Of a DNA stretch of 64,000 nucleotides, positions 55,466 through 64,000 are shown in pieces. Position numbers and translations under genes: made by a program. The stretch lies in NCBI GenBank assembly GCA_948144175.1, contig CANXME010001452.1, positions 496,001-560,000 on the forward strand. Reading direction: 5' to 3'. Position 1 is the stretch's first letter; each line of letters begins with the position of its first letter. The notes below the pieces were generated by a model. The model ran no database searches. It saw nothing but the letters and a program-made list of their open reading frames with translations, and had not been told where the DNA came from. This DNA is from Closterium sp. NIES-65. Lineage: Eukaryota; Streptophyta; Zygnematophyceae; Desmidiales; Closteriaceae.

Positions 55466-56540
55466 GACTGAATTGCTTAAAGCTCAAGGCACAAATTGCA
55501 CAAGTCTAGTAAGGTTGACCCATGTGTTTTTCGAGTGGGGTTGTGGCGCAAGTTCTGATTTCGCCCAGGCTCTCATCAAACACGGTCTCTCCCAGGGGGG
55601 TTGCGCGCACTGCTTGAAAGTTTGAGAGTACACATGCAAATGTCTGCGTATGGTACGTTGAGAGACCCCATACACTTTTTACCACGTTCGATGAAGACCC
55701 CTGGATCTTCAAACCGGGATACCACGGTAGCTCGCTGAAGAATATTGTCAGTGCTGGTTACGGGCAACAGGCATTGATGCCTCGCACCCTAGATACTCAA
55801 CTATCTCCACATTATCACGGGACAGCATACACGGTTCTCATGTGAAGTCTCACAGCCACTTCTAGCAGCAGATGTAACTTCCAGGGCAGAAAGTTTCTCA
55901 ACCTAGGCGCTCCTGATTTATATCCACAGTGTTATACGGTATGTACGGTGGTTAATGTACCACAACTACCGGTAGAACAAATTGCCACTGGAAGCAGATG
56001 GGAGACACCTCGGTCCCCAGGTCAAGTGCCGTGCTTCCTCTTTGATGGCTTGAGATAGATTCGTGGATCCACAGTTGAGCTTGCGTGATAACGTCCACAT
56101 AACAGCTATTAGGCATGAGCTTTCACGAGTAGATGGAAACGATTCAACTGAAACGAGCCGCAACTTGGTCGAAGCGAGGAACGTGAACAACTGCAGGATG
56201 GAGGCGGGAGGGAATAGATTATAGATAGAATTCCGGGCAGCAATGGCGCAATAACAGACGGGGAGAGCGGAGGTTACGGGTGGGGCGGAGGGGGATGGGG
56301 GAGGAAAGATAGAAAATATTGGCCGAGTTTTTACAGGAGTTGTGGAAATTGAAAAAACAAGGCCATGCTTACAAGCATGAGTGGAGAGAAAGCACATGAA
56401 TGCAAATTGCCATTCACGGATGGAGAACTCCACATGACCATTGCATGCCGTCGCATTGTGCGACTCACCACCATCACGGTATGGTATGGAGATAGCAAGG
56501 ACTCCTAACCACCGTCGGATGGCATGATGGGCCAACTCAC
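55466..56540 (-). other. Downstream flank of the MPP-alpha-like gene, unassigned
   Basis: Minus-strand frames at 55576-55767 (ILQRATVVSRFEDPGVFIER) are open but unrecognised. Near 56465-56475 a copy of the last exon end and its donor (CCGTGATGGTGGTGAGT on the minus strand) repeats the junction at 56535-56550. I could not place the terminal MPP-alpha exon; it may be within this stretch or beyond Copia-E. Confidence 0.35.
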
Positions 56541-59500
56541 CATCACCGTAGGATGCCATGGAGAGCGGCGTGGAGATGATTTTCCGCGCCACGTTGGCGA
56601 TGTCGGCTGATGTCACGTCCCTCAGCTTTGCAATGAAGTCGTGCGGTGGCTTCCTGCCGTTCCCAGCACGCAGGGAGGGAGGGCGCACAGAAAGGGAAGG
56701 GCGCACAAAGCGGTCACAATTGGCCTGAATGTGAGAGGCTTGGAGCTAGCCAAGGCTCGAAACCTCAACAAAGTGAGTCGACTCTTGAGGCAGCTCAGAA
56801 GAAGCGTCAAGCCAGCCAAGGCTCAAAGCTCGAGTGCTATCAAGCAGCTAAGCGTCATCACAAATTCGGGGTGCGATGGAAGGGTGAGAGAGTGCTTTCA
56901 TGTCAAAGAAGGCAGGACCAGTGCGTACTCGGTTGCGATGGCGTACCTGTGGCCATAGGTGAGGATCTGACGGCCGATGTCCTCCGCCACCACCACCTGA
57001 TGTGACGGCGTAGGGTGATATCAAAGGGAGGGGCAGACGGAAGGAGGGGAATGATGGCAAGCAATCACATGGCTTGGGACTGCATGGCATGGAATGGGCC
57101 GAATGGGATGAGATGAGATGAGAAATTGGAGTTGATGAAATGAGATGGGAGAGGAGGCATGCCACGATATGAGACATGGCAGCGAGGGCGCTATGGGCAT
57201 GAGCAGCACTAAGAAGGCACGACCTCCCTTGCAACCCACTGCTTACACACAAGGCACGACCTCCCTTGCAACCCACTGCTTACACACAAGGCACGACCTC
57301 CCTTGCAACCCACTGCTTACACACAAGGCACGACCTCCCTTGCAACCCACTGCTCACACACAAGGCACGACCTCCCTTGCAACCCACTGCTCACACACAA
57401 GGCACGACCTCCCTTGCAACCCACTGCTCACACACAAGGCACGACCTCCCTTGCAACCCACTGCTCACACACAAGGCACGACCTCCCTTGCAACCCACTG
57501 CTTACACACAAGGCACGACCTCCCTTGCAACCCACTGCTTACACACAAGGCACGACCTCCCTTGCAACCCACTGCTTACACACAAGGCACGACCTCCCTT
57601 GCAACCCACTGCTTACACACAAGGCACGACCTCCCTTGCAACCCACTGCTCACACACAAGGCACGACCTCCCTTGCAACCCACTGCTTACACACAAGGCA
57701 CGACCTCCCTTGCAACCCACTGCTCACACACAAGGCACGACCTCCCTTGCAACCCACTGCTTACACACAAGGCACGACCTCCCTTGCAACCCACTGCTTA
57801 CACACAAGGCACGACCTCCCTTGCAACCCACTGCTTACACACAAGGCACGACCTCCCTTGCAACCCACTGCTCACACACAAGGCACGACCTCCCTTGCAA
57901 CCCACTGCTTACACACAAGGCACGACCTCCCTTGCAACCCACTGCTCACATACAAGGCACGACCTCCCTTGCAACCCACTGCTCACACACAAGGCACGAC
58001 CTCCCTTGCAACCCACTGCTCACACACAAGGCACGACCTCCCTTGCAACCCACTGCTCACACACAAGGCACGACCTCCCTTGCAACCCACTGCTTACACA
58101 CAAGGCACGACCTCCCTTGCAACCCACTGCTCACACACAAGGCACGACCTCCCTTGCAACCCACTGCTCACACACAAGGCACGACCTCCCTTGCAACCCA
58201 CTGCTCACACACAAGGCACGACCTCCCTTGCAACCCACTGCTCACACACAAGGCACGACCTCCCTTGCAACCCACTGCTCACACACAAGGCACGACCTCC
58301 CTTGCAACCCACTGCTCACACACAAGGCACGACCTCCCTTGCAACCCACTGCTCACACACAAGGCACGACCTCCCTTGCAACCCACTGCTCACACACAAG
58401 GCACGACCTCCCTTGCAACCCACTGCTTACACACAAGGCACGACCTCCCTTGCAACCCACTGCTCACACACAAGGCACGACCTCCCTTGCAACCCACTGC
58501 TTACACACAAGGCACGACCTCCCTTGCAACCCACTGCTCACACACAAGGCACGACCTCCCTTGCAACCCACTGCTCACACACAAGGCACGACCTCCCTTG
58601 CAACCCACTGCTCACACACAAGGCACGACCTCCTTGCAACCCACTGCTCACACACAAGGCACGACCTCCCTTGCAACCCACTGCTTACACACAAGGCACG
58701 ACCTCCCTTGCAACCCACTGCTCACACACAAGGCACGACCTCCCTTGCAACCCACTGCTCACACACAAGGCACGACCTCCCTTGCAACCCACTGCTCACA
58801 CACAAGGCACGACCTCCCTTGCAACCCACTGCTCACACACAAGGCACGACCTCCCTTGCAACCCACTGCTCACACACAAGGCACGACCTCCCTTGCAACC
58901 CACTGCTCACACACAAGGCACGACCTCCCTTGCAACCCACTGCTCACACACAAGGCACGACCTCCCTTGCAACCCACTGCTCACACACAAGGCACGACCT
59001 CCCTTGCAACCCACTGCTTACACACAAGGCACGACCTCCCTTGCAACCCACTGCTTACACATCACCAAGATCTCTCTCTTTCCCATGTGACCCAACGCCC
59101 TTGTGACCCAACGCCCTTGTGACCCAACGCCCTTGTGACCCAACGCCCTTGTGACCCAACGCCCTTGTGACCCAACGCCCTTGTGACCCAACGCCCTTGT
59201 GACCCAACGCCCTTGTGACCCAACGCCCTTGTGACCCAACGCCCTTGTGACCCAACGCCCTTGTGACCCAACGCCCTTGTGACCCAACGCCCTTGTGACC
59301 CAACGCCCTTGTGACCCAACGCCCTTGTGACCCAACGCCCTTGTGACCCAACGCCCTTGTGACCCAACGCCCTTGTGACCCAACGCCCTTGTGACCCAAC
59401 GCCCTTGTGACCCAACGCCCTTGTGACCCAACGCCCTTGTGACCCAACGCCCTTGTGACCCAACGCCCTTGTGACCCAACGCCCTTGTGACCCAACGCCC

Positions 59501-61634
59501 TTGTGACCCAACGCCCTTGTGACCCAACGCCCTTGTGACCCAACGCCCTTGTGACCCAACGCCCGCCCCCCTGGGTGTGCATCTCACCCGCCCCCCTGGG
59601 TGTGCATCTCACCCGCGACTCAAGGTTCATCTCGATGGACGAGATGCACGCGTTCTTGGCGCGCTGCAGCTCCTCCGCCGACACTGCGAGGGCATGTGGG
59701 GATAGGGGCGAGGAGAGGTGTGAGTTGACAAGGAAAAAACAGATGCACACACTCTTGGCCCGCTCCAACCCCTCTACTGATGCTGTGTTGTGGGACAGGC
59801 AATGCTGTGTTGTGGGACAGGCAATGCTGTGGGGAAAACGGGTAAGGAGACACGCGAGCTAAAAGGGTAGGAGCTGGAGCGGGTGAGGGGAGAGGGCAGG
59901 TAAGCGGGATGAGGGCAGGTTGGAATTGACAAGGAAGACTACTGTTGGCAGGCAGGCGCAAGAGCAGCACGGCGCAGCGTAGATACACTTAAGAGGAGCG
60001 AGTGGCAGCGTTGCTGCACTCTAGCGCCATCGCTTCTCGTCCCCCCTCCACACCTTGCATTGCTCCTGTCTCACCTCCCTCGACTGTAACCCTGCTTGCC
60101 TCTCACCTCGCTCACACCTCAACTTTCTCACACCTCAACTTTCTCACACCTCAACTTTCTCACACCTCAACTTTCTCACACCTCAACTTTCTCACACCTC
60201 AACTTTCTCACACCTAAACTTTCTCCGCGTTATCAACATGAACATCGACAAGCTTTGACCAGCTCTTCATTCACCTCCCTCACACCTCATCTCCCCCCAC
60301 CTCACATCCCCCACCCCACCCGCCCCCACATGCGTCTCCGCCCCGCCCCAACCCAACCCAACCCACCCCACCCCACCCCGCCCCGCCCCGCCCTCCCCTC
60401 CCCCGCGTGGCACCTCCATTGGGCTCAGCGACGGCAAGCAGCTCGCGAGTCATGATGTCCACCAGCTCTGCCGCATGGCCTGACGCCTGGTGCGCGCGCG
60501 CACAGGGGGGAGAAGAGGGGAAGGGGGGAGACGGGGGGCGCGGTTGTTAGGCACTGCACTGCACAAAGGGGATTGACGTGAGCGACCTCAGCCGCATGGG
60601 CTGACGCCTAATGTACACGTGGGAAGGAGGGAGGACGGGAGAGAAAGGGGAAGAAGGAGCCTGTTTTTGAGGTGCCTCAAACAAGGAGCTCGCATCGCAA
60701 GCAACGACGTCCACCACGCCAGCTGCATGGCCTCATGCCCCATGGACGCGTGGCCTCATGCCCCATGGACGCGTGGCCTCATGCCCCATGGACGCGTGGC
60801 CTCATGCCCCATGGACGCGTGGCCTCATGCCCCATGGACGCGTGGCCTCATGCCCCATGGACGCGTGGCCTCATGCCCCATGGACGCGTGGGCTGGCAGG
60901 AGGAGTGGGGAGGAGGGGGGAAAAGGGGGAAGGCGGGGAAGGATTGGGAAGGATTTGGGGGAGGGGGGGGGGTGGGGAAAGGGGGGAGGATACAGGAAGA
61001 GAGTATGTTTGTGAAAACTTAAGTAAGGAACTCAAGAGCCATGGTGTCACTTCACTTCATGATGGGTGCCTTAAACGACACGTAGCACTCACGGGTGTAG
61101 CAGAGCAGCCGTCCCCTCACAGCACTCACGGCGGTGGCGTGGATGCCTCCCCCCTCTACCACTCACAGCAGTGGCGTGGATGCCTCCCCCCTCTACCACT
61201 CACAGCAGTGGCGTGGATGCCTCCCCCCTCTACCACTCACAGCAGTGGCGTGGATGCCTCCCCCCTCTACCACTCACAGCAGTGGCGTGGATGCCTCCCC
61301 CCTCTACCACTCACAGCAGTGGCATGGATGCCTCCCCCCTCTACCACTCACAGCAGTGGCATGGATGCCTCCCCCCTCTACCACTCACAGCAGTGGCGTG
61401 GATGCCTCCCCCCTCTACCACTCACAGCAGTGGCGTGGATGCCTCCCCCCTCTACCACTCACAGCAGTGGCGTGGATGCCTCCCCCCTCTACCACTCACG
61501 GCGGTGGCGTGGATGCCTCCCCCCTCTACCACTCACGGCGGTGGCGTGGATGCCGATGAGCCCTGTGTCGTTGTAGATGGAGTTGAAGGCGCTGCATGAC
61601 GTCACCATGCCGTACTGGTTCAGCACTCGCGTGT
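56541..61634 (-). CDS. Mitochondrial processing peptidase alpha subunit-like gene, C-terminal exons
   Basis: Five exons with GT-AG borders and compatible phases. A 61634-61537: TRVLNQYGMVTSCSAF, NSIYNDTGLIGIHATA. B 60486-60414: ASGHAAELVDIMTRELLAVA, EPNG. C 59683-59613: VSAEELQRAKNACISSIEMN, LESR. D 56996-56947: VVVAEDIGRQILTYGH. E 56653-56541: RKPPHDFIAKLRDVTSADIA, NVARKIISTPLSMASYGD. The order matches the C-terminal half of MPP-alpha (M16-fold; its glycine-rich loop helps the beta subunit cleave presequences in the matrix; part of the bc1 complex in plants). The exon before A should end KGMYSRLY; its junction forms the 33-bp array at 62184-64000. Start and last exon are not seen. Introns are full of minisatellites. 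A pseudogene cannot be excluded. Confidence 0.82.
57217..59061 (-). repeat. 37-bp minisatellite, about 50 copies, in the intron between exons C and D
   Basis: Unit of 37 bp (starts GCACGACCTCCCTTGC on +), nearly perfect. The main variant is TTACACAC/TCACACAC; one unit has lost a C at about 58632. On the gene strand each unit carries GTGTGTAAGC or GTGTGTGAGC, a donor-like hexamer. The long + strand frames here (up to 653 aa) follow from the repeat. Confidence 0.97.
59087..59565 (-). repeat. 16-bp minisatellite, about 30 copies
   Basis: Unit GTGACCCAACGCCCTT on +, essentially perfect, directly adjoining the duplicated exon C donor. Open frames on the minus strand (GHKGVGSQGRWVTRAL) are repeat artefacts. 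Confidence 0.97.
59566..59614 (-). repeat. Duplicated exon C 5' splice junction
   Basis: Two copies of a 25-bp unit that on the gene strand reads CGG then GTGAGATGCACACC and a G run. The first copy is the true exon C end. Confidence 0.85.
59739..59790 (-). other. Decayed copy of exon C
   Basis: On the minus strand GTTGGAGCGGGCCAAGAG and GTGTGTGCATCT match exon C (GCTGCAGCGCGCCAAGAA, GCGTGCATCT). It reads GLERAKSVCI against ELQRAKNACI, lies 56 bp upstream of exon C and lacks a usable donor. Confidence 0.7.
60111..60222 (-). repeat. 16-bp tandem repeat, 7 copies, in the intron between exons B and C
   Basis: Unit CTCACACCTCAACTTT; the last copy has A for C. On the gene strand it reads AAAGTTGAGGTGTGAG. 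Confidence 0.95.
60570..60610 (-). other. Decayed copy of exon B start (copy 2)
   Basis: On the minus strand TAG then GCGTCAGCCCATGCGGCTGA, against the exon B start CAG then GCGTCAGGCCATGCGGCAGA. The acceptor AG is kept; similarity fades after about 35 bp. Confidence 0.7.
60655..60740 (-). other. Decayed copy of exon B (copy 1)
   Basis: Minus strand GAGGCCATGCAGCTGG, GTGGTGGACGTCGTTG and GATGCGAGCTCCTTG align with exon B around HAAELVDIMTRELL. It directly abuts the 22-bp array. Confidence 0.6.
60728..60889 (-). repeat. 22-bp tandem repeat, about 7 copies
   Basis: Unit CATGCCCCATGGACGCGTGG plus CCT. On the gene strand the units precede the exon B copy and share its GCATGAGGCCA start. Confidence 0.95.
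61123..61555 (-). repeat. 37-bp array made of exon A end plus its 5' splice site, about 11 copies
   Basis: Unit of 37 bp. On the gene strand it holds GGCATCCACGCCACTGCT, the last 18 nt of exon A, followed by GTGAGTGGTAGAGG and a G run. The copy overlapping 61537 is the true junction. Inner copies share two changes (GCC ACC GCC to GCC ACT GCT); two copies have CAT for CAC. The array lies immediately downstream of exon A. Confidence 0.93.
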
Positions 61635-61639
61635 CTGGG

Positions 61640-61900
61640 GAGGGGGCAGGGGCGACGGGGCACGGGGAAAGGGCAAGGGGGAGAGGCAAGGGGCCAGGGG
61701 CCAGGAGGGAGGGGGCAGGGACCAGGGAGGAGGGGGCATAGGGCAGGGGGCAGTGGGCAGGGGCCCGTGGGAGAGGGCAGGAAGCAGGAGGGAGGGGGTA
61801 GAGGGCAGGGGACAGGGGGGAAGGGGGCGGGGGGAGAGGGCAAGGGGCAGGGGGCAGGAGGAGGGGAGAGTAGGCAGCAGTGGGGGAAGAGCGAGGGTTG
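61640..61900. repeat. G-rich low-complexity tract
   Basis: Purine-rich + strand of short GGGGCAGGGG/GGGAGGGGGC words upstream of exon A (pyrimidine-rich on the gene strand, next to its acceptor). Confidence 0.75.
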
Positions 61901-61924
61901 GCGGATGAGCGGATGGGCAAAGGC

Positions 61925-61980
61925 GCATGAAGCGTGACGTCACCATGCTCACGTGGTACAGCACATGGGAACGTAGGAGG
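61925..61980 (-). other. Decayed copy of exon A start
   Basis: Minus strand GTGCTGTACCACGTGAGC and ATGGTGACGTCACGC match exon A GTGCTGAACCAGTACGGC and ATGGTGACGTCATGC. It reads VLYHVSMVTS against VLNQYGMVTS. Confidence 0.7.
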
Positions 61981-62021
61981 GGAGGCGGCAGGGGAAGAGA
62001 TAAGGAGTTGGTATGTGGGGT

Positions 62022-62047
62022 CTAAACCCTAAACCCTAAACCCTAAA
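62022..62047. repeat. Interstitial plant-type telomere repeat
   Basis: 3.7 copies of CCCTAAA, followed by AT-rich DNA to about 62160. Confidence 0.85.
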
Positions 62048-62183
62048 TTATGGAATTTTTCGGTCGAAATTTTCGATAGCGAAATTTTCGCCCAAAATAT
62101 GAAAAATTCGGCGACATTTTGCACCCTGTGTGGGGAGAACGAATTCCCAACACGGAAAGAAGCGTTGCATGCTGTGAAAGCAA

Positions 62184-64000
62184 AGCAGGACTGACAGAGG
62201 CGCGAGTACATGCCCTTGCAGGACTCACAGAGGCGCGAGTACATGCCCTTGCAGGACTCACAGAGGCGCGAGTACATGCCCTTGCAGGACTGACAGAGGC
62301 ACGAGTACATGCCCTTGCAGGACTGACAGAGGCGCGAGTACATGCCCTTGCAGGACTGACAGAGGCGCGAGTACATGCCCTTGCAGGACTCACAGAGGCG
62401 CGAGTACATGCCCTTGCAGGACTCACAGAGGCGCGAGTACATGCCCTTGCAGGACTGACAGAGGCGCGAGTACATGCCCTTGCAGGACTCACAGAGGCGC
62501 GAGTACATGCCCTTGCAGGACTCACAGAGGCGCGAGTACATGCCCTTGCAGGACTCACAGAGGCGCGAGTACACGCCCTTGCAGGACTCACAGAGGCGCG
62601 AGTACATGCCCTTGCAGGACTCACAGAGGCGCGAGTACATGCCCTTGCAGGACTGACAGAGGCGCGAGTACATGCCCTTGCAGGACTCACAGAGGCGCGA
62701 GTACATGCCCTTGCAGGACTCACAGAGGCGCGAGTACATGCCCTTGCAGGACTCACAGAGGCGCGAGTACATGCCCTTGCAGGACTCACAGAGGCGCGAG
62801 TACATGCCCTTGCAGGACTGACAGAGGCACGAGTACATGCCCTTGCAGGACTGACAGAGGCGCGAGTACATGCCCTTGCAGGACTGACAGAGGCGCGAGT
62901 ACATGCCCTTGCAGGACTCACAGAGGCGCGAGTACATGCCCTTGCAGGACTCACAGAGGCGCGAGTACATGCCCTTGCAGGACTCACAGAGGCGCGAGTA
63001 CATGCCCTTGCAGGACTCACAGAGGCGCGAGTACATGCCCTTGCAGGACTCACAGAGGCGCGAGTACATGCCCTTGCAGGACTGACAGAGGCGCGAGTAC
63101 ATGCCCTTGCAGGACTCACAGAGGCGCGAGTACATGCCCTTGCAGGACTCACAGAGGCGCGAGTACATGCCCTTGCAGGACTCACAGAGGCGCGAGTACA
63201 TGCCCTTGCAGGACTGACAGAGGCGCGAGTACATGCCCTTGCAGGACTCACAGAGGCGCGAGTACATGCCCTTGCAGGACTCACAGAGGCGCGAGTACAT
63301 GCCCTTGCAGGACTCACAGAGGCGCGAGTACATGCCCTTGCAGGACTCACAGAGGCGCGAGTACATGCCCTTGCAGGACTCACAGAGGCGCGAGTACATG
63401 CCCTTGCAGGACTCACAGAGGCGCGAGTACATGCCCTTGCAGGACTCACAGAGGCGCGAGTACATGCCCTTGCAGGACTCACAGAGGCGCGAGTACATGC
63501 CCTTGCAGGACTCACAGAGGCGCGAGTACATGCCCTTGCAGGACTCACAGAGGCGCGAGTACATGCCCTTGCAGGACTCACAGAGGCGCGACTACATGCC
63601 CTTGCAGGACTCACAGAGGCGCGAGTACACGCCCTTGCAGGACTCACAGAGGCGCGAGTACATGCCCTTGCAGGACTCACAGAGGCGCGAGTACATGCCC
63701 TTGCAGGACTCACAGAGGCGCGAGTACATGCCCTTGCAGGACTCACAGAGGCGCGAGTACATGCCCTTGCAGGACTCACAGAGGCGCGAGTAGTACATGC
63801 CCTTGCAGGACTCACAGAGGCGCGAGTACATGCCCTTGCAGGACTCACAGAGGCGCGAGTACATGCCCTTGCAGGACTGACAGAGGCGCGAGTACATGCC
63901 CTTGCAGGACTCACAGAGGCGCGAGTACATGCCCTTGCAGGACTCACAGAGGCGCGAGTACATGCCCTTGCAGGACTCACAGAGGCGCGAGTACACGCCC
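62184..64000 (-). repeat. 33-bp minisatellite, about 55 copies, reaching the window edge
   Basis: Unit of 33 bp. On the gene strand AAGGGCATGTACTCGCGCC then TCT, GTGAGTCCTGC. The coding part reads KGMYSRL plus T, the exact end and phase expected for the MPP-alpha exon before exon A, and GTGAGT is a consensus 5' splice site. Variants: GTCAGT for GTGAGT in roughly one fifth of units, one 3-bp insertion at about 63790, some A/G changes. All three frames stay open because 33 is divisible by 3; the long frames here are not evidence of a separate gene. Confidence 0.95.

Follow-up and report, generated by a model that had tools for sequence, protein, structure and literature searches.

The window analysed here, a 64,000-nucleotide stretch of the Closterium sp. 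NIES-65 genome, contains the last exons of an MPP-alpha gene (minus strand, 56144-64000), and the introns between these exons hold copies of the exon boundaries that flank them, some expanded into minisatellites and others decayed. This is not confined to one gene: of 60 exon edges tested across MPP-alpha, MPP-beta, CCT2 and CCT7, 34 are significantly matched by a copy in the intron next to them, against 3 of 428 controls. The structure is real, wider than a first-pass annotation of the window had claimed, of a known kind, and present at high density in the genes seen. Its best explanation, which we regard as probable, is that local tandem duplications are placed at random and survive at exon boundaries, where short ones expand and long ones decay.

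Exon-edge copies in four genes

The first-pass annotation had recognised an MPP-alpha-like gene, and this identity is upheld. Exons A to E, together with an exon F that had been overlooked, splice in frame and end in a stop; the joined exons give an ungapped match to plant MPP-alpha (8zno_A, E = 1.8e-50) and a match to PF05193 (peptidase M16), and the window product shares 93% identity with CLOP_g6343 from Closterium sp. NIES-67. With six further exons outside the window, the whole gene on contig C1449 comprises 12 exons coding for 526 amino acids, 483/526 of them identical to CLOP_g6343. The same 12 exons were recovered by our own spliced-alignment script. The assembly holding the gene (874 Mb, 2400 contigs) carries a second copy on contig C1954, 0.5% diverged from the first: outside arrays, the aligned segments show 22 differences over 4170 non-coding positions and 6 over 1524 coding ones. 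More than half of the orthogroups of strain NIES-65 are reported to be duplicated despite haploid samples (PMC10407611).

To each exon edge we applied the same test, in which 40-45 bp of the edge were aligned to the adjoining intron and the score was compared with those of dinucleotide shuffles; controls were exon edges set against non-adjoining introns, judged by a looser criterion than the real edges. Within the window, 4 of 11 edges are copied in the adjoining intron at 0/1000 shuffles, and none of 50 controls (at most 2/200). For the whole MPP-alpha gene the count is 7/22 (0/400 shuffles; controls 0/220 at 0/100). MPP-beta on contig C1894, which matches 7jrg_A (E = 2.6e-176), has 12/14 copied edges (0/300 shuffles; controls 1/84), CCT2 on C1757 has 9/14 (controls 2/84) and CCT7 on C1657 has 6/10 (controls 0/40), these three genes being tested over the part covered by the reference protein. 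MPP-beta was met as the paralogue of MPP-alpha, and the two CCT genes were picked for complete hits and manageable sequence length. The nearest copies are 70-100% identical to their exon edge, with a mean of 89% (n=34). Several weaker edges were left uncounted: in MPP-alpha the acceptors of exons 5 (9/400) and 4 (23/400) and the donor of exon 11 (10/400), in CCT7 the exon 1 donor (2/300) and in CCT2 the exon 3 acceptor (16/300).

Both types of boundary are involved. The annotation had suggested a process that copies 5' splice junctions specifically, and this part of it does not stand: copies were found for 15 donor edges and 19 acceptor edges, out of 30 of each, and we therefore reject 5'-only copying as the main account.

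Junction arrays and decayed copies in MPP-alpha

In MPP-alpha several of the repeat units are themselves exon-intron junctions, and this recurs at separate exons, as the annotation had held (all features below lie on the minus strand; exons A to E are placed by in-frame splicing, the whole-gene model and spliced alignment, and arrays by Tandem Repeats Finder (TRF)). The largest junction array, a 33-bp minisatellite (62185..64000) with 54.9 copies in the window and 69.1 in the whole gene, starts inside exon 6, outside the window. Its unit, as unit listing also showed, consists of the last 24 bp of exon 6 and the first 9 bp of the intron, and the copies read, with few exceptions, as exon end followed by GTGAGT or GTCAGT. 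The array preceding exon A was thus correctly described as exon end plus donor. The same is true of the 37-bp minisatellite (61123..61554; 11.7 copies, TRF and unit listing) at exon A itself (exon 7 of 12; 61537..61634), where the unit is made up of the last 18 bp of the exon and the first 19 bp of the intron, and CGGC is common to both ends of the array. In both gene copies this array has exon-type first and last copies and drifted inner ones. The array opens with two exon-type copies on C1449 and with one on C1954, which suggests that exon A is still seeding copies into it. In the exon part of the inner copies there are three changes, all synonymous in the exon frame, and the 33-bp array contains non-synonymous changes and a stop; the synonymous variants are too few to count as evidence, and we dropped them.

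For two other exons the annotation was too generous. At exon C (exon 9; 59613..59683) a 25-bp tandem duplication (59562..59616; TRF and two-copy comparison) does cross the donor, as claimed, but covers only 4 bp of exon. It is flanked by GCGGG repeats, and is present as 2.2 copies on C1449 and as a single copy on C1954. This is most simply read as a junction duplication caught young; being single in a gene copy only 0.5% diverged, it marks the copying as recent. The second junction copy proposed for exon E (exon 11; 56541..56653) is possible but weak: the candidate decayed copies of the exon end and donor (56469..56526) have a score that 27/1000 shuffles reach in the window, beside the 10/400 for the whole gene given above.

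Copies of exon starts, on the acceptor side, had been overlooked. The start of exon A has a decayed copy at 61920..61964 (33/45 identical), that of exon C one at 59741..59774 (27/34 identical), and that of exon B (exon 8; 60414..60486) an older decayed copy at 60682..60738 (39/57 identical), each at 0/1000 shuffles. Exon B has in addition a younger copy (60574..60657), which lies 121 bp upstream of the original and takes in its polypyrimidine tract, AG and exon start, the exon-start copy being placed at 60607-60574. Arrays also sit on fossil copies. A 23-bp minisatellite (60728..60891; 7.1 copies, TRF) and a 22-bp repeat (59780..59831; 2.4 copies on C1449 and 7.4 on C1954, TRF) are placed on the fossil acceptors of exons 8 and 9, respectively. 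In intron 4 the end and donor of exon 4 recur as a fossil 147 bp downstream, and a 27-bp array lies on it.

Not every array has such a recognisable source. No exon sequence was recognised in a 16-bp minisatellite at 60111..60225 (7.2 copies, TRF), nor in the 37-bp minisatellite of the intron between exons C and D (57214..59061; 50 copies on C1449 and 178 on C1954, TRF), whose units vary mainly between GTGAGC and GTAAGC, both donor-like. A further 16-bp minisatellite occupies 59082..59564 (30.2 copies on C1449 and 3.2 on C1954, TRF). Beyond this intron lie exon D (exon 10; 56947..56996) and exon F (exon 12; 56144..56190), the latter placed by in-frame splicing and including the stop codon.

Comparison of the two gene copies shows how unstable the arrays are. 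All ten MPP-alpha arrays with units of at least 16 bp differ in copy number between C1449 and C1954: 69.1 against 48.1 for the 33-bp array, 11.7 against 12.7 for the 37-bp array at exon A, 7.1 against 5.1 for the 23-bp array, 2.4 against 7.4 for the 22-bp array and 2.2 against one for the 25-bp duplication at exon C. The two 16-bp arrays have 7.2 against 6.2 and 30.2 against 3.2 copies, the 37-bp array between exons C and D has 50 against 178, and two 27-bp arrays have 5.1 against 2.1 and 2.2 against 3.2. Arrays that TRF lists with a shorter period or a low-complexity unit are omitted from this comparison; three of them (7, 13 and 15 bp) are equal in both copies. The sense strand is G-rich in six of eight arrays. 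Another difference between the gene copies is a 115-bp insertion with 3.7 TTTAGGG repeats (62021..62135; two-copy alignment and TRF), found on C1449 only. TTTAGGG is the plant telomere repeat, and the insertion may be telomere sequence that was added where a break was repaired.

Outside the four tested genes, a gene beside MPP-beta, which we call the CPL gene after its weak CPL-domain match (PF08144, E = 3.1e-5) and for which no PDB relative was found, has an exon start repeated upstream in units of 121 bp (2.6 copies) and 113 bp (6.5 copies). Altogether the start of one exon is present about nine times in tandem ahead of the real exon here (C1894, about 1078700-1085100). Among the CCT/cpn60 genes, of which there are about 11, most present twice in the assembly when grouped by eye, duplicated exons are visible even in the protein hits on C43, C1626 and C1052. 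Apart from the MPP genes and the CPL neighbour, ab initio exon finding in 242 kb returned peptides that were mostly repetitive. The remainder of the window (1-55500) consists mostly, by eye, of long terminal repeat retroelement-like reading frames with short-period arrays of their own. A search for M16 relatives elsewhere found one bacterial M16 gene in genome contigs and none in viral contigs.

Offset, placement and origin of the duplications

The copies do not lie at arbitrary distances from their exon edges. Nearest-copy offsets range from 33 to 521 bp with a median of 147.5 (n=34); 24/34 fall at 117-181 bp, where 3.5 are expected under uniform offsets, and 13/34 at 140-153 bp, where 0.7 are expected (0/100000 draws in either case). 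Repeated 12-mers, counted separately, give 40 of 128 events at 140-179 bp when MPP-beta (20/36), CCT2 (7/25), CCT7 (9/26) and the CPL gene (4/41) are pooled. Three stretches that lie outside these genes (258 kb in all) served as controls, and their corresponding counts are 8/124, which is that of window positions 1-55500, 25/396 and 12/314. DNA in the nucleosome is 147 bp long. The preferred offset suggests duplication of nucleosome-sized pieces, and the size may be linked to nucleosomes or to nucleosome-sized Okazaki fragments.

How might such copies arise and persist? Under the explanation we prefer, random duplication with survival at boundaries, local tandem duplication would be frequent in Closterium genes and its breakpoints random relative to splice sites. 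Duplications inside an exon would be purged by selection, and those astride a boundary would be tolerated because splicing can go on from whichever copy adjoins the exon body. At a donor this would be the upstream copy, whose donor continues to be used, and at an acceptor the downstream copy, which retains the tract and AG; the remaining copy would turn into intron. Short units (16-37 bp, with ends that share 4-5 bp in two cases) would then grow and shrink as minisatellites, and long units, which measure about 120-180 bp and in many cases close to 147 bp, would decay into exon fossils. Introns would grow from the edges of their exons, like the 'mirages' of amphioxus discussed below.

Some observations weigh against this explanation or against the generality of the 147-bp offset. 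MPP-alpha (5/44 events at 140-179 bp) and the CPL gene have their tallest 12-mer bin at 20-39 bp, MPP-alpha's own arrays being mostly short-unit, and the control stretches show small bumps at 120-159 bp; the mode near 147 bp is thus clear in three of the five genes but not in all of them, and the genes are few. MPP-alpha arrays lie at true or fossil junctions in 6/10 cases (expected 1.9, P = 0.0045) and at true donors in 3/10 (P = 0.031). GTRAG occurs in 5/8 sense units (expected 1.25, P = 4e-4) and in none antisense, and the profile of duplicates has its peak at the boundary, with a dip on the intron side between +20 and +80 bp. Several of these points would be expected if a process aimed at splice junctions, through 5' sites, R-loops or splice-site DNA, copied them preferentially; donor-spanning arrays (3/8, P = 0.009) and a positive GC skew in the first third of 4/5 window introns point the same way. 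We nevertheless consider such targeting unlikely. The placement and GTRAG tests in MPP-alpha are post hoc and cover the listed arrays of one gene, and they weaken when narrowed: GTRAG falls to 2/5 (P = 0.19) without the three junction arrays, and complete arrays alone give 2/7 donor-spanning (P = 0.062), or P = 0.058 with either junction type counted. Nor does GTRAG qualify as a general minisatellite motif, a possibility we rejected on finding it in 4 of 35 other window arrays, hand-picked from TRF at one per place, where 4.5 are expected. Donor and acceptor edges are affected alike, and boundaries are hit no more often than on shifted exon maps: in MPP-beta 9/18 duplications span a boundary against a mean of 7.0 for shifted maps (P = 0.15), and 9/14 boundaries are affected against a mean of 9.0, while in MPP-alpha, where long arrays dominate, 3/10 duplications span a boundary (mean 3.6) and 3/22 boundaries are affected (mean 11.4). 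The reach of copies into exons is likewise near that of a 147-bp unit placed at random; from 20 to 120 bp the observed fractions are 0.61, 0.53, 0.52, 0.41, 0.22 and 0.10, against 0.61, 0.51, 0.42, 0.32, 0.22 and 0.13 for the model, which is scaled to the first point, in an analysis that skips two MPP-alpha introns longer than 1300 bp. We tentatively ascribe the boundary peak and intron dip to a faster decay of intron-intron pairs: a peak at the boundary would be expected if exon copies, with one side of the pair drifting, remained recognisable for longer than intron copies.

If the duplications are not aimed at splice sites, might the copies nonetheless be kept for a function, as alternative exons or as decoy splice sites under selection? 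Among the nearest copies, all 24 whose alignment extends to the exon edge have an intact splice dinucleotide. The 33-bp unit keeps the reading frame and has no stop, and the frame of exon 6 on C1954 (C1954:2401494-2401706) stays open for 789 amino acids. Late donor use within the 33-bp array could add many copies of an 11-amino-acid repeat. Over all nearest copies, however, GT or AG is kept in 26 of 34, where our arithmetic from a mean identity of 0.89 predicts 27, so that there is no excess, and we dropped selection on the splice signals of the copies as an explanation of the 24/24. One 33-bp copy in the window carries TAG, the 37-bp unit at exon A would shift the frame, and the peptide of the 33-bp repeat has no protein match among those of the length searched; we do not take the in-frame unit as evidence of coding. 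Use of the first donor of each array is predicted to give the conserved protein, and the product so spliced has 526 amino acids, the length of the NIES-67 protein, neither containing the repeat peptide. A functional role for the copies seems to us improbable. An artefact of assembly is less probable still. Arrays of 2-6 kb are hard to assemble, and copy numbers may be wrong, but the nearest copies are mostly diverged and occur in four genes on separate contigs, and both MPP-alpha contigs show the same kinds of array. The published Closterium assemblies of this size, among which this one would fall, are described as built from PacBio reads with an N50 of 28-30 kb (PMC10407611); the published assemblies are annotated with 27,822-52,529 genes.

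Relation to known systems and significance

The annotation knew of no named system of this kind, but one has been described. Mirages are minisatellites at intron-exon boundaries of the amphioxus genes Adh3, globins, TnC and PGBD5, with units of 10-160 bp (PMC3087553; PMC3902484). The resemblance is close. Closterium units span boundaries, both in the 33-, 37- and 25-bp donor arrays and in the long-unit copies of MPP-beta, CCT2 and CCT7; donor and acceptor boundaries are both affected; the copies carry splice signals, which most of the nearest ones keep at the homologous place; and array length varies, between haplotypes in amphioxus and between gene copies in Closterium. Globin units of 150-160 bp (PMC3087553) match the long class of Closterium, and terminal copies that escape homogenisation are seen in Closterium in one array, that of 37 bp at exon A. 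Somatic instability has been reported for the Adh3 mirage. Splicing was checked by reverse transcription PCR in amphioxus and is predicted from sequence in Closterium, where a 526-amino-acid product as long as the NIES-67 protein may be an indirect sign that regular splicing is undisturbed. The differences are that Closterium is a streptophyte alga, with junction copies numbering as many as 69 (an array in which no exon sequence was recognised reaches 178), more than half of the tested edges affected across four genes, and a measured offset mode near 147 bp.

Other systems share single features. In the potato RdRp gene a new intron arose from a tandem duplication across an intron-exon boundary, with reuse of splice signals (PMC4974935); the boundary-crossing duplication is common to both cases, but in Closterium existing introns lengthen and no new intron was shown. 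Hypervariable minisatellites likewise differ in copy number between gene copies, with homogenised inner copies and a G-rich sense strand, but several of the Closterium units are exon-intron junctions. Introners are a genome-wide source of intron DNA (PMC9860276), in contrast to the exon-edge copies of Closterium, which are placed in the intron next to their own exon (3 of 428 controls), in a comparison that covered exon edges against non-adjoining introns. Our literature search, whose coverage left out most subscription papers, returned no report of exon-boundary repeats in a green alga. What is new here is thus their presence in a green alga, their density, and the preferred offset of about 147 bp, the most novel part and one drawn from few genes.

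A more general reading is possible but tentative: that Closterium introns genome-wide grow mainly by tandem duplication of about 147 bp astride exon-intron boundaries, that most introns begin and end with fossils of their flanking exons, and that the quantum of growth is dictated by chromatin or by replication units the size of a nucleosome. Such a quantum, if true, would tie intron growth to nucleosomes. The lengthening of introns is seldom seen directly, and these genes show it taking place from exon edges, recently and at high density. As Closterium is related to land plants and several of its strains have been sequenced, the rate and breakpoints of this growth, and the tolerance of the spliceosome for it, should be measurable, and an intron with 69 near-identical donors offers a natural test of how the spliceosome chooses among them.

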